DNA of 64,000 bases from Pedosphaera parvula Ellin514 (GCF_000172555.1 NZ_ABOX02000038.1:1-64000), one strand, 5' to 3'; shown: positions 34,741 to 64,000, counted from the first letter of the stretch. Program-made: numbers and translations. Notes: generated from the sequence alone by a model not told the origin.

Positions 34741-35880
34741 TCATTTTAAGATCGGTCTGAGTTGTTTATCCGTTTGCCTGGCCAGTTCAAAGGGATCGAC
34801 GGCGTAATACCAGTCGCGCAACCGTTGCGCCTGTTTCCTACCCAGTTGTCCGCTGCTCACCAGCCGCTGGTAGGCCGTCTGCGGACGGTCGTGACGGCGA
34901 ACCCAGCGGCTGCCTTCCCGATGCTTGGCCACCAGCTTGGCTGAGGGCAGAAAAAAGTTCTGCAATGGCCCCCAGGTTTCCTTGTAAAGCTGGTTGATCA
35001 AGGGCACCGCTGCCGGAGATTCCAACCGGGCATAGCCCAGAACCTGCCGCGGCCACATCCAGTTCTTCTGCTCCACATGCGCATTGTCATCTTTATGATA
35101 AGGGCGTGAGCGGGTGAGTTTTACGGGCACCACGCGCTCCTGCAGGTAACGCACCAGATGCCAGTTCAGCCATTCGCTCCCATTGTCAAAATCCATCCCC
35201 AGCAAAGGAAATGGCAGGTTTTTTTCCACGTCCCGGGTTTGCTCCAACACCCCTTGGGCACCCTTGTTCCACACGGCCCGACCTTCCGTCCACCCACTCC
35301 CCAAACACGTGTAGGTCAGGCTCCAAATGAAATCACCCGCCAGGCTGGAACCGCAATGCGCCACGCTGTCCGCCTCCAAAAATCCCGGACGTTGCTCATC
35401 CCACACTTCCCCCTGAATGGGAATCTGGGTCCGCAACAGCGTGCCGGGCCGGGTGCCACATAACCGGCGAGGGACTTCCGCTTTGAGCGGCGCCAGCAGC
35501 CGGTCCAGGGTCGCGGCACTGACCTTTCCCAAGAGCTTCTTCTGTGCTGGCAAAAGACTGCCGTAGTGCTTGCCATAATGCGGCAACCACAGGGCCAGCG
35601 CCGGTTCCAGCCGCTTGCCACAAAGCTGTTCACTGGCTTTCCAGATCCGCTCGACCACCTCACGCACCGGCTCATAGACCGGTTCGGCCCCGGGGCGCAC
35701 TCCGCCCTTGGGCTTGGGCAATTGATCCCCCAACAACTTGATCGCATGCTTGCGATCATAGCCATGATGTTCACAAAACTCATCGAGCATCCGCGTTTTT
35801 CCTTCCCGCCCTCGACCGGCATACCGCCTCCGCAAACGTTCCAACTCTTCCGTCCGACAACTGCTCTTTGGCATCTTCAT
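34741..35880 (-). CDS. DDE-type transposase with integrase catalytic core
   Basis: 379 residues. N-terminal helix-turn-helix region: KTRMLDEFCEHHGYDRKHAI. The integrase core shows the three acidic residues in order: FLEADSVAHCG (Asp), LLGMDFDNGSEWLN (Asp) and DNAHVEQKNW (Glu), with spacing suited to the rve fold. It resembles the unassigned (ISNCY/IS481-like) transposases frequent in Verrucomicrobiota and Acidobacteria; I do not assign a family. The frame is intact, with no stop or frameshift, so it may be functional. It fills most of the insertion sequence. Confidence 0.9.
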   Translation of the reverse strand: MKMPKSSCRTEELERLRRRYAGRGREGKTRMLDEFCEHHGYDRKHAIKLLGDQLPKPKGGVRPGAEPVYEPVREVVERIWKASEQLCGKRLEPALALWLPHYGKHYGSLLPAQKKLLGKVSAATLDRLLAPLKAEVPRRLCGTRPGTLLRTQIPIQGEVWDEQRPGFLEADSVAHCGSSLAGDFIWSLTYTCLGSGWTEGRAVWNKGAQGVLEQTRDVEKNLPFPLLGMDFDNGSEWLNWHLVRYLQERVVPVKLTRSRPYHKDDNAHVEQKNWMWPRQVLGYARLESPAAVPLINQLYKETWGPLQNFFLPSAKLVAKHREGSRWVRRHDRPQTAYQRLVSSGQLGRKQAQRLRDWYYAVDPFELARQTDKQLRPILK

Positions 35881-59977: not shown

Positions 59978-60487
59978 ATGAGACCGGAAATTCGATTAAA
60001 GTTTGAGAGTATCCTGAGCTATCCATTTTTTCAAGCTGTTGGAAAGCCATTGCCGCCCTCGATTACGAGTGTGAAGAGCTGGCCAGTGGCTGTAAAAGAA
60101 GGCAATTCACGAAAATGGGAGAATTGTCGCTTGGCTGCAAGAAATGCTCTTCAAGAAGCTGTCCAGCGCAAATCGTGGGAGAGATTACAGGATTGGAACC
60201 CTCTTGCAGATGAGCTTCGGCCACTGATTTTGTCTTTTGTCGACACCATGCTGACTACCGCACCGGTTCCAGAATCATATAGAGAAAAGCTGAGACATGA
60301 GCTTACTTGGGATATTATGTTCATTTGCCTCGAAGAGGAATATAAGGACTTGGTAGAGCCGCTCTTGCACATCCCCCAATTGGATGGATGGTATGCAGCT
60401 GGCCATTTTCCCTGTGGCTGGGATGAAGCTGAATTCCCGGATCATTGGGATGGAATAATCCGTAGCGGGCGGGTGATGGTGTTTTGA
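59978..60487 (+). CDS. hypothetical protein, possible immunity or stress protein
   Basis: 169 residues, mostly helical, cytoplasmic. I do not recognise a domain. It has LILSFVDTMLTTAPVPESYR, KLRHELTWDIMFICLEEEYK and a closing segment IPQLDGWYAAGHFPCGWDEA with the aromatic/Gly cluster LDGWYAAGHFPCGWD, which I have seen in uncharacterised small proteins. It lies 41 bp after the radical SAM gene and 59 bp before the MoxR-type cluster on the same strand. It could belong to that cluster, though there is no evidence beyond position. Confidence 0.6.
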   Translation: MRPEIRLKFESILSYPFFQAVGKPLPPSITSVKSWPVAVKEGNSRKWENCRLAARNALQEAVQRKSWERLQDWNPLADELRPLILSFVDTMLTTAPVPESYREKLRHELTWDIMFICLEEEYKDLVEPLLHIPQLDGWYAAGHFPCGWDEAEFPDHWDGIIRSGRVMVF

Positions 60488-60546: not shown

Positions 60547-61188
60547 ATGGGTTTATTCCAGTTTTTGAATGCGCTGGCCGAATCCGGCAGCGTCATTGTG
60601 ACACAGGATTTCCGTGAGGAGGTCGAGCCTGAAGCTGAGGAAGTTTTGAAAGAAATGGATCGGCTTTACCGTTCACACCTTCCCGGAAAGGCCCCTGACT
60701 TTGTCCCGGAGGCAGCGTTGTGGGGGGCGAAGATGCTGTATCGGGGATGCCAATTCCTCGTCTGCCGGGATATCGATGGTGACATTGTGAGCAAGGCGAT
60801 GCAGGAAGCTTGTCCTTTGCCTCATTCTCCAGCGACTGATTACTCGGTGGACTTAACCTTCCGCTTTTTACCCGATTTGATAGGCATGACCCGCGGTGTG
60901 TCATCGGGAGATCCGTTGCTCCAGGCTCTTTTGAAAATCGCCACGGAATGGCCGTTGTCTTCCGTGGGCGTTACCGGCGTGGAAGGGGTGAACGTTTCGC
61001 ATTTCATTTCTGACCGTTGCTTGCGCCAACTCTACATCGACCGCATCCTGGAAAGAAATGATCTCACGCGCCTTGGCAGTCTGGAAGTAAACCAGGCGAT
61101 TAAAGAATCTTTGGGCGCTCACGTTGAGCTTTGCCCAACCGTTGCGGAGAAAATGCAATCGGCCATGACAGCAACCAGTCCTGATTAA
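60547..61188 (+). CDS. predicted component of a MoxR-vWA-type ternary system
   Basis: 213 residues, no signal or membrane helix. The C-terminal half carries VGVTGVEGVNVSHFISDRCL, RQLYIDRILERNDLTRLG and SLEVNQAIKESLGAHVELCP, a string characteristic of the accessory domains that travel with MoxR and vWA proteins in this kind of locus (bpX-type domains in current family nomenclature). I assign it by this resemblance and its place 21 bp before the MoxR gene. Biochemical role unknown. It starts a tight plus-strand run that continues past the right edge. Confidence 0.7.
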   Translation: MGLFQFLNALAESGSVIVTQDFREEVEPEAEEVLKEMDRLYRSHLPGKAPDFVPEAALWGAKMLYRGCQFLVCRDIDGDIVSKAMQEACPLPHSPATDYSVDLTFRFLPDLIGMTRGVSSGDPLLQALLKIATEWPLSSVGVTGVEGVNVSHFISDRCLRQLYIDRILERNDLTRLGSLEVNQAIKESLGAHVELCPTVAEKMQSAMTATSPD

Positions 61189-61209
61189 ATTAATATTTTC
61201 AAACCTGAT

Positions 61210-62364
61210 ATGACCAGCAACTCAATATTAGATATTGGCCGGCGGCTCGGCGAAGAAGTCCTTCAGCCGATGAAGCAAGCCTTCGTAGGGAAGGATGAAG
61301 TGATCGACCTCCTGGGTGTTTGCCTGGTGGGCGGCGAAAATCTTTTCATTTTGGGGCCGCCGGGAACGGCGAAAAGCGCCTTGGTGCACAATCTCGCTGC
61401 CCGACTCGAAGGTCAAACCTTTGACTATCTGTTGACCCGATTCACGGAACCGAACGAATTATTTGGTCCTTTCGACATCCGAAAACTTCGCGAGGGCGAG
61501 CTGATCACCAACACCGAAGGCATGTTGCCCGAGGCTTCCCTGGTGTTTTTGGACGAATTGCTCAATGCGAACAGCGCCATTCTAAACAGCCTGCTTACCG
61601 CGCTGAACGAACGTATGTTTCGTCGCGGAAAGGAATCACGGCCATTGAAGGCGCTGCTTTTTGTCGGTGCCAGCAATCACCTGCCTGAGGACGATGCGCT
61701 TAAGGCTCTGTTTGACCGTTTTCTGCTACGAGTCCATTGCGATAATGTGGGTGCTGAACAACTGGCGGACGTGCTGGCTGCAGGGTGGAAATTAAATCAG
61801 AACCGAATTACCACTTCATCGCTTCACTTTGATGAAATACAGAAGCTCCAAGGTTTGCTCACGGGAGTGGACCTGACTCCGGTGCGCGACGCCTATGCTG
61901 AACTGGTGCACCGCATCCGGCATGCAGGGATTCCGGTGTCTGATCGTCGGGCGGTGAAGCTGCAAAAGCTCATCGCGGCAAGTGCGCTACTCTGTGGTAG
62001 GTTGGTCGCTCGAAATTCCGATCTTTGGGTGTTGAAATACATCTGGGATACGGACGATCAACAGGAAGTCTTGCAGGCACTTGTGGACAAGGTGGTTTCC
62101 AAATCCGAGAGCGAAGTTGCTGATCACGTCCGCGCCCGTCCCCCTGAAGGGCCTGATCCGGAAAGTCTCGCCCGTGATCTGGATTTCATCACCGAACGTT
62201 TGAAATCTGAAACCAATGGCGAACAAGCCTATTTGCAAGATCGTCTGGGTTTGTTGGAAGGACGATGCCAATGGGTTAAAGATTCGCAAAAACGCGACTT
62301 CCTGACCAAACGCATTGCGGAGTTGTGGCCGCAACTAAAATCTGGAGCGGTCAAAGCAGTATAG
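61210..62364 (+). CDS. MoxR family AAA+ ATPase
   Basis: 384 residues. Walker A: FILGPPGTAKSALVHNLAAR (about 47-66); FTEPNELFGPFDIRKLREGE is the MoxR helix-2 insert region; Walker B: SLVFLDELLNANSAILNSLL (about 114-133); sensor 1: LLFVGASNHLPEDDALKALF with the arginine finger in DRFLLRVH. After residue 215 the lid domain is all-helical. MoxR ATPases act as chaperones that load or remodel vWA partner proteins, here very likely the product of 63086-64000. The RavA-like Walker motifs are complete, so it should hydrolyse ATP. Confidence 0.93.
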   Translation: MTSNSILDIGRRLGEEVLQPMKQAFVGKDEVIDLLGVCLVGGENLFILGPPGTAKSALVHNLAARLEGQTFDYLLTRFTEPNELFGPFDIRKLREGELITNTEGMLPEASLVFLDELLNANSAILNSLLTALNERMFRRGKESRPLKALLFVGASNHLPEDDALKALFDRFLLRVHCDNVGAEQLADVLAAGWKLNQNRITTSSLHFDEIQKLQGLLTGVDLTPVRDAYAELVHRIRHAGIPVSDRRAVKLQKLIAASALLCGRLVARNSDLWVLKYIWDTDDQQEVLQALVDKVVSKSESEVADHVRARPPEGPDPESLARDLDFITERLKSETNGEQAYLQDRLGLLEGRCQWVKDSQKRDFLTKRIAELWPQLKSGAVKAV

Positions 62365-62373
62365 CGATCAGCC

Positions 62374-63093
62374 ATGAATTCCTGGGCAGCTTGCATACCA
62401 TTTTCCGAAGCCGCAGAACTCGCGGTCATCCGTTTGTTTCCGGGGATAGAATGCGCCAAGGTCGCCGGGACACTATGGCTTCGCGGAAACAATGGCAGCG
62501 AAGAGCTTGAGCAGGCGCTGAGAGGTATTTCGGATTTGGAACGCTTCGAACTGCTGGAGTCGGGCTGGTTGAAGTCTGCTGAATCGCGCATTCCGGAACG
62601 AATCCTTCCCCGGGTGGAATGGCAACCACTTAAGGGAGCGATGTTGCCAGGCTTGCCAACCGCAGCGCTGCCCGGAGAAACCCGGCAAAAACTCCCGCTA
62701 ACATTGGTAAGAACTCACACCGAAGCAACACCTGGAGCCATACTGGCGGATTTTGATGCCTGGTATGAATTTGCGATTCAAGCGCCTGAAATTCGGTTGA
62801 AGGGTTTGCGTTTTGCCGTCAATGAAGAACGACGTGTTTCGGTGATTGGCCATCCCGTGCCGCCCATCAAAGGTCTGCAGCTCGTCGATTATTCCGGCAT
62901 CCTGATTCCGTGCGGATTCACCTGGTTTCCGGCTGTGGAGGCAATGGTGTTAAGTGAGCTTTTTAATCGAGGAGCCGAGGACTTTGTCATTTTCTTTGAA
63001 GATCATACTCACCAGATCATCAAGCCGGAACAACTCCTGACTGCCAGCCGAAGCGCCGTTCGGGAAACTTACTCCAAATTACTGCATGCCTGA
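62374..63093 (+). CDS. predicted accessory component of a MoxR-vWA-type ternary system
   Basis: 239 residues, cytoplasmic. LKGLRFAVNEERRVSVIGHP followed by VPPIKGLQLVDYSGILIPCG and FTWFPAVEAMVLSELFNRGA form a conserved region typical of proteins between MoxR and vWA genes in these loci; the assignment is from this resemblance and position. The first 130 residues are less distinctive. Its stop overlaps the next gene's ATG by 8 bp (ATGCCTGA), so both are probably translated together. No catalytic motif seen. Confidence 0.7.
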   Translation: MNSWAACIPFSEAAELAVIRLFPGIECAKVAGTLWLRGNNGSEELEQALRGISDLERFELLESGWLKSAESRIPERILPRVEWQPLKGAMLPGLPTAALPGETRQKLPLTLVRTHTEATPGAILADFDAWYEFAIQAPEIRLKGLRFAVNEERRVSVIGHPVPPIKGLQLVDYSGILIPCGFTWFPAVEAMVLSELFNRGAEDFVIFFEDHTHQIIKPEQLLTASRSAVRETYSKLLHA

Positions 63094-64000
63094 CAGCCAT
63101 CAACAAGCCTTAGCCTACTTCAGCACAGCACACGATGAACCGTGGCGTTGGGCGGAGTCGGGGCGGGTTATTGTGTGGTCGGATGGCACCACGATTGCAT
63201 TTCGGGAGGAATTGGAGGAAATCCTGGGATTAATGGCTGTGAAGGGTTTGCCTCCTTTTCATGCCATAGTGCTGCTGCTGGCCGCCTGCCGTGGCAAACT
63301 TCCTGCGGCATCTATTTTCAGTCATCCCATCGCGGAGACAGTTCCGGTCATATCCGACTCTGGCAAGCCACCGATTTCACCGGCCACGGGTAATCAATTA
63401 CTTCTCCGGGCCTGGAACGATCCGGCGAACCAGGAATTTTCGGAATTTATTGCCAGACTGAAATCGTTGCAACAATTGCCGGTGGAACTGAGGAACAGTC
63501 CGCGAGCAAAGGCTGTACTGCTGGAAATGATTCTCGAGCAGGTTCGATTTGAGCGCGTTCAGCCTGCCCGCGAGATCGTTCAAGTCCTCGCGGATGGTTC
63601 CCTGACTGATGACCTGCTTAATAACAAAAAACCGTCCGCCAGCAATACTGTTTCGTTATATCGCCAGATTCATCAGAGTTTAAAACACTTTTCTCCCGAA
63701 GCTCTGGCAGCGCGCATCCAGACGGGTCTTGATGAATTGCCTGAGGCGGCGGAGATCACGCTGGAACCTGCGGCTCGTGTCCGGCAATTGCTCAGCCGAC
63801 TGCAGGACGACCCTGATTATCAGGGTCTGGCGAAAGTGACGCGCGACATCATGGCCGCGCTTTACCTGCCCCGCTCTCTTTCCGAAATGGAGGAACTCGC
63901 GTTGGGCGGATTTTCGGATATTTCCAATCGCGGCAATCTTGATCGCCTGTTGCCGAGTGAATTGGCCAATGATGACCTGACACTCGCGGCGCGCGTTGCC
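63086..64000 (+). CDS. predicted vWA-associated component, 5' part, runs off the window
   Basis: Open frame from the ATG at 63086 to the last base, 305 codons without a stop. It starts MPDSHQQALAYFSTAHDEPW, followed by RWAESGRVIVWSDGTTIAFR and GLPPFHAIVLLLAACRGKLP; near the right edge it has LGGFSDISNRGNLDRLLPSE then LANDDLTLAARVA. This is the sort of N-terminal extension that precedes a vWA domain in the ternary-system vWA proteins (GG-x-D-I-x-N-R-G...L-x-S-E-L-A-x-D-D-L). The vWA domain itself would lie beyond the edge. No signal peptide; a helical region at about 120-260. Confidence 0.72.
   Translation, partial: MPDSHQQALAYFSTAHDEPWRWAESGRVIVWSDGTTIAFREELEEILGLMAVKGLPPFHAIVLLLAACRGKLPAASIFSHPIAETVPVISDSGKPPISPATGNQLLLRAWNDPANQEFSEFIARLKSLQQLPVELRNSPRAKAVLLEMILEQVRFERVQPAREIVQVLADGSLTDDLLNNKKPSASNTVSLYRQIHQSLKHFSPEALAARIQTGLDELPEAAEITLEPAARVRQLLSRLQDDPDYQGLAKVTRDIMAALYLPRSLSEMEELALGGFSDISNRGNLDRLLPSELANDDLTLAARVA

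Follow-up and report, generated by a model that had tools for sequence, protein, structure and literature searches.

Gene content and layout of the operon

The window analysed here is a stretch of 64,000 nucleotides of Pedosphaera parvula Ellin514 (NZ_ABOX02000038.1:1-64000), taken from contig C38 of a draft genome with 102 contigs; the contig extends past the window to position 69966. Positions 60547-64000 hold four frames on the plus strand, which are spaced by 21 bp, 9 bp and finally an 8-bp overlap. A first-pass annotation of the sequence had described the same four genes, and the ORF listing matches it exactly in strand and spacing. The first gene, which is preceded by the ribosome-binding-like motif AAAGGAG, encodes the 213-amino-acid protein bpX4 (60547-61188, +; Pfam PF19920, E 5.1e-67) and is followed by the genes for the AAA+ ATPase bpMoxR (384 amino acids; 61210-62364, +; PF20030, E 6.7e-100) and bpX2 (239 amino acids; 62374-63093, +; PF19918, E 3e-70). 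The fourth frame (63086-64000, +) encodes the N-terminal 305 amino acids of a bpX0-vWA-like-propeller protein (PF19915 bpX0, E 2.8e-36) and is still open at the end of the window. The annotation had also stated that the window cuts the system early, and the missing parts lie further along the contig: the whole bpX0 protein frame (799 amino acids, +) runs from 63086 to contig position 65485, a bpX1 sequence in another frame ends at contig position 65831 (PF19917, E 5e-16), and a gene for a 916-amino-acid bpX3-TPR-propeller protein occupies contig positions 65828-68578 (bpX3, E 3e-53, with a weak TPR match). The gene order MoxR-bpX2-bpX0-bpX3 is seen again in Verrucomicrobial relatives and on a plasmid of the Bacteroidota. 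Upstream of bpX4 lies a gene of 169 amino acids (59978-60487), which has no Pfam, NCBIfam or PADLOC match; it was rejected as a component of the system, as it belongs to no family and relatives have no equivalent gene next to their operons. Elsewhere in the window, an ORF of 379 amino acids (34741-35880) looks by eye like a transposase or integrase.

Assignment to the MoxR-vWA-beta-propeller ternary systems

Kaur et al. 2020 (PMC7159879) described the MoxR-vWA-beta-propeller ternary systems, the class that the first-pass annotation had proposed for the locus. A Pfam domain search identified the four proteins as bpX4, bpMoxR, bpX2 and bpX0 (E 7e-100 to 3e-36), and the operon that begins at 60547-64000 is, judging from its protein families, almost certainly a member of the class. 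The predicted gene content is complete and consists of bpX4, bpMoxR, bpX2, bpX0-vWA-propeller(-bpX1) and bpX3-TPR-propeller. It resembles the published systems in all families (Pfam bpX0-bpX4 and bpMoxR), in the TAKS-type P-loop, in the propellers of both large proteins, in the TPR region of the third component and in the phyla concerned, Verrucomicrobia and Bacteroidetes. The VMAP and FtsH ternary systems share the MoxR-vWA core; a family search of the operon proteins found neither a VMAP nor a double FtsH component. The genome contains ten further MoxR-like matches elsewhere, and one might suppose that an ordinary housekeeping MoxR has merely come to lie beside unrelated genes. However, the gene set is not a product of chance, because every frame scores far above the cut-off for a particular curated family, its own within the ternary systems; gene order and co-occurrence are moreover conserved across relatives, which leaves chance proximity with a negligible probability. 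The class itself is already known; new here are the signature that stands in place of the MIDAS motif, the displaced frame of bpX1 and the finding that bpX2 and bpX4 co-occur with the core, also where bpX4 is unlinked.

The bpMoxR ATPase

The annotation's complete MoxR AAA+ ATPase is borne out by the sequence of bpMoxR, which contains the P-loop GPPGTAKS at residue 49 and the Walker B motif VFLDEL at residue 112. A TAKS-type P-loop (GxxxTAKS) is a peculiarity of the class (Kaur et al. 2020, PMC7159879). The nearest solved relative of bpMoxR in the PDB is RavA (E 2e-41), and the operon shares the logic of an ATPase and a vWA partner with the RavA-ViaA system of Escherichia coli. However, the ATPase is shorter than RavA (384 versus about 498 amino acids) and scores 172 bits against the RavA equivalog model, far under its cut-off of 681. 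The operon further differs from RavA-ViaA in having two propeller proteins and a degraded MIDAS.

The vWA-like domain and propeller of the bpX0 protein

The first-pass annotation had regarded the fourth protein as the N-terminal part of a vWA partner and had expected a MIDAS motif (DxSxS) and a beta-propeller downstream. Membership in the bpX0 family and continuation of the frame (63086-65485) agree with this reading; however, no significant vWA match was obtained and DxSxS is absent. A vWA-like region with a Rossmann-like pattern and a conserved first aspartate starts around residue 312-320, immediately outside the window, and carries D-x-G-x-R-x-W-G in place of the MIDAS motif. This signature is common to the relatives: all 16 aligned sequences have the first aspartate (D330, 16/16), other residues take the place of the two MIDAS serines, and the Thr-Asp of strand 4 usually reads T-N/Q/H, an aspartate being found in Hymenobacter only. 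According to Kaur et al. 2020 (PMC7159879), some vWA domains of the class lack one or both MIDAS aspartates; here, in contrast to the published description, both serines and mostly also the second aspartate are lost. Neither Pfam nor a profile search against the PDB gave a significant match for the vWA fold, and hhalign comparisons with canonical vWA domains taken from this genome gave no significant alignment either (best P 0.15, in register at the first aspartate and at 'VLVTN'). An AlphaFold model of the region, built from one sequence only, reached a pLDDT of 38 and was discarded. The expected propeller is present in both large proteins: in the bpX0 protein, it follows the vWA-like region and matches 1l0q (E 1.8e-12) and TolB (E 3e-4) when a profile of the relatives is compared with the PDB, and the bpX3 protein contains a second one.

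The NorQ-NorD system, in which a MoxR ring and a vWA adaptor remodel a client, is similar to the machine proposed below. The MIDAS of NorD is required for acting on the client and dispensable for binding of the ATPase (PMC9976466). NorD thus needs an intact MIDAS for its client, whereas the site is degraded here, and no client enzyme recurs next to the operon. By analogy, the degraded metal site of the vWA-like domain suggests that clients may be recognised by the propellers instead of a metal-bridged contact.

A frame change in front of bpX1

According to Kaur et al. 2020 (PMC7159879), about 62% of the systems have a vWA protein with an N-terminal helical bpX0 and a C-terminal beta-rich bpX1 domain. 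In 14 relatives, bpX1 continues the frame of the vWA-propeller part, and it was not recognised in two distant relatives (L028 and L037). In P. parvula Ellin514, unlike in the published systems, bpX1 is out of frame: homology switches frame within about 20 bases near contig positions 65437-65457, the first frame stops at 65485, and bpX1 has no start of its own at the expected place. A programmed frameshift was rejected as the cause of the split, since all relatives with a recognisable bpX1 have a single frame. The bpX1 frame is free of stops and still overlaps the bpX3 gene by 4 bp (ATGA), and the other genes are intact; the frame change therefore either happened very recently or is an error in the draft assembly of 102 contigs. 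A decaying copy, partly or wholly inactive because the vWA protein has lost its bpX1 end, would account for the displaced frame, which sets this genome apart from the 14 relatives, and for a sister species that lacks the system entirely. The stop-free bpX1 frame, the intact ATGA overlap and the integrity of all other system genes speak against decay, which we regard as possible but rather unlikely. The predicted system is, on balance, probably fully functional in this particular genome.

The bpX3 protein and the small proteins bpX2 and bpX4

Profiles of the relatives predict that the bpX3 protein combines a TPR solenoid with a propeller; there are weak matches to WDR24 (6e-5) and IFT144/IFT122 (about 1e-3), and the propeller matches that of PkwA (E 0.0035). 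A highly variable N-terminus with a membrane-spanning segment is a common trait of the third component (Kaur et al. 2020, PMC7159879). In contrast, the third component described here has neither a membrane segment nor a hypervariable N-terminus, two features that do not enter the definition of the bpX Pfam families. None of the Verrucomicrobial proteins contains a 19-residue stretch with a KD value above 1.8, and such a stretch is found in Hymenobacter only (2.92). Conservation is highest in the TPR region and lowest in the propeller, the N-terminus being less variable than the propeller.

For bpX4, an all-alpha fold was predicted by AlphaFold2 (pLDDT 84, pTM 0.81), which has no match among solved structures (Foldseek against the PDB, best E 0.72) or viral structures. 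bpX2 has no evident catalytic motif. Both proteins have few invariant polar residues (for bpX2, in an alignment of 16 relatives), and adaptor roles are therefore more likely than catalysis for the two of them.

Distribution, co-occurrence and transfer

The system is rare. Among 320 genomes of the order, 14 (about 4%) have bpX3, which exceeds the cut-off in 3 of 388 genomes sampled across the phylum, among them the genome of the window; a sister species of the same genus (G001) lacks the system. In a set of 58 genomes, 7 have bpX0, and exactly these also have bpX3 (p 3e-9). bpX4 occurs in 14 of the 320 genomes, 13 of them shared with bpX3 (p 4e-21), and bpX2 in 13, all 13 shared with bpX3 (p 3e-22); these p-values assume independent genomes and overstate the strength of the association, because related genomes are not independent. 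The exceptions to co-occurrence are contig ends, which cut G007 inside bpX0 and G023 just inside MoxR. In G002, G054, G585, G037, G584 and G586, bpX4 lies on a contig other than that of the core, although the contigs of G584 and G586 are small, so that the distance there may be short or long. The genome G002 carries a bpX4-MoxR pair apart from bpX2-bpX0-bpX3. The separate contigs of bpX4 mean that co-occurrence reflects more than linkage, and we infer that bpX4 is an obligatory component able to act in trans. Judged by co-occurrence, the minimal set of this order includes bpX2 and bpX4, which seem obligatory there and not optional, a difference from the systems of Kaur et al. 2020. A solitary bpX4 lies beside gatB in two genomes (L084, G585:C53, 8195-10318; L085, G586:C516, 675-2740), and the related genome G587 has the whole operon at that site.

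Phylogenetic trees indicate transfer. In the bpX3 tree, a genome of the window's own family (G006) groups with a genome from a different family (support 0.99); in the MoxR tree, too, it is apart from the copy of the window, its precise position being less well supported. Another Verrucomicrobial copy (G037) pairs with the plasmid copy of Hymenobacter yonginensis (Bacteroidota) in both trees (support 0.89 for bpX3 and 0.94 for MoxR). The operon of P. parvula is slightly richer in GC (54.4%) than 8-kb windows (51.5 +/- 0.9%). A phage origin was rejected, as the system was absent from the virus contigs and phage records searched: neither bpX0 nor bpX3 was found in IMG/VR, and bpX4 was not found in phage records.

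Genomic surroundings of related operons

In one genome, a complete BilABCD, a CapP/CapH-like pair and a fragment of a type III restriction enzyme adjoin the bpX operon (L029, G537:C77, 7160-11992); BilABCD is a ubiquitin-like anti-phage system. Among 79 flanking proteins that were scanned, there were no clear defence genes besides those of this genome, and a general reading of the operon's surroundings as a defence island was rejected, since it is true of this genome and not of the others. Several copies sit among housekeeping genes, namely rpsB-tsf-pyrH, hflX, thrS and gatB. PADLOC has no model for the system, and the best hit among the system's proteins, an AAA match to mad8 (E 0.002), is not convincing. 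Two further arrangements were observed. The bpX4-MoxR pair of G002 is preceded by three mutually related genes, at least one of which encodes an ADP-ribosylglycohydrolase, a macro-domain gene and a KptA/Tpt1 gene (L019, 3336-9323), which run co-directionally into bpX4-MoxR with a gap of 43 bp between KptA and bpX4. In a distant relative, a second MoxR and what appears by eye to be a short DtxR/MntR-like regulator lie directly upstream of the operon (L037, G247:C98, 5065-6488).

Proposed function

The RavA-like ATPase and its partners are predicted, with good confidence, to form an ATP-driven remodelling complex. bpMoxR would assemble into a hexameric ring, on which the vWA-like protein would dock and couple ATP hydrolysis to a conformational change; the fused propeller and the TPR-propeller partner would recognise clients, and bpX2 and bpX4 would serve as structural adaptors without catalytic motifs. 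Such a soluble complex would most likely act in biological conflict, in the response to phages or rivals, with ATP-driven remodelling as the switch. Taken as a whole, a ternary machine acting in biological conflict is the best explanation of the operon and a moderately probable one.

The conflict role itself, which Kaur et al. 2020 (PMC7159879) predicted for the class, is about evenly balanced. It is favoured because of the patchy distribution, the transfer and the one copy that lies beside the BilABCD defence genes. Counting against it are the housekeeping surroundings, the fact that this copy is the sole one with clear defence neighbours, and the lack of an effector domain: none was seen in the system, just as the first-pass annotation had noted no effector motifs. 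No experiment on the beta-propeller class was found in the literature searched. The same machine could instead be a maturation chaperone of an accessory cellular complex, as RavA-ViaA, NorQ-NorD and CbbQ-CbbO serve an enzyme. The nearest solved ATPase is RavA, the MoxR-vWA pairs characterised by experiment help a client to assemble or to regain activity, no effector domain is seen, and housekeeping neighbours in several genomes together with dispersed yet retained genes suggest an integrated cellular role. However, a very patchy distribution, transfer between families and phyla and a plasmid copy in H. yonginensis speak against it, as does the absence of a client enzyme that recurs next to the operon; a chaperone role therefore appears rather unlikely, if conceivable.

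The machine acting in conflict, to return to the preferred explanation, can be drawn more specifically, if only as a speculative proposal that is more probably wrong than right: a five-part, effector-free immune or stress machine, in which the vWA-like adaptor would dispense with metal-dependent client capture, the two propeller proteins would recognise clients, and all parts would be required in each cell, even when encoded at separate loci. Among the predicted MoxR-vWA ternary systems, none is more enigmatic than the beta-propeller class, which has no effector; with the MIDAS lost, its recognition of clients must differ from that of RavA-ViaA and NorQ-NorD. Given the presence of bpX2 and bpX4 in the minimal set and the loss of the MIDAS, the class can be tested directly with a defined set of five genes. 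As the parts are kept together across genomes even where the genes lie far apart, the system is a good test object for the function of the class.
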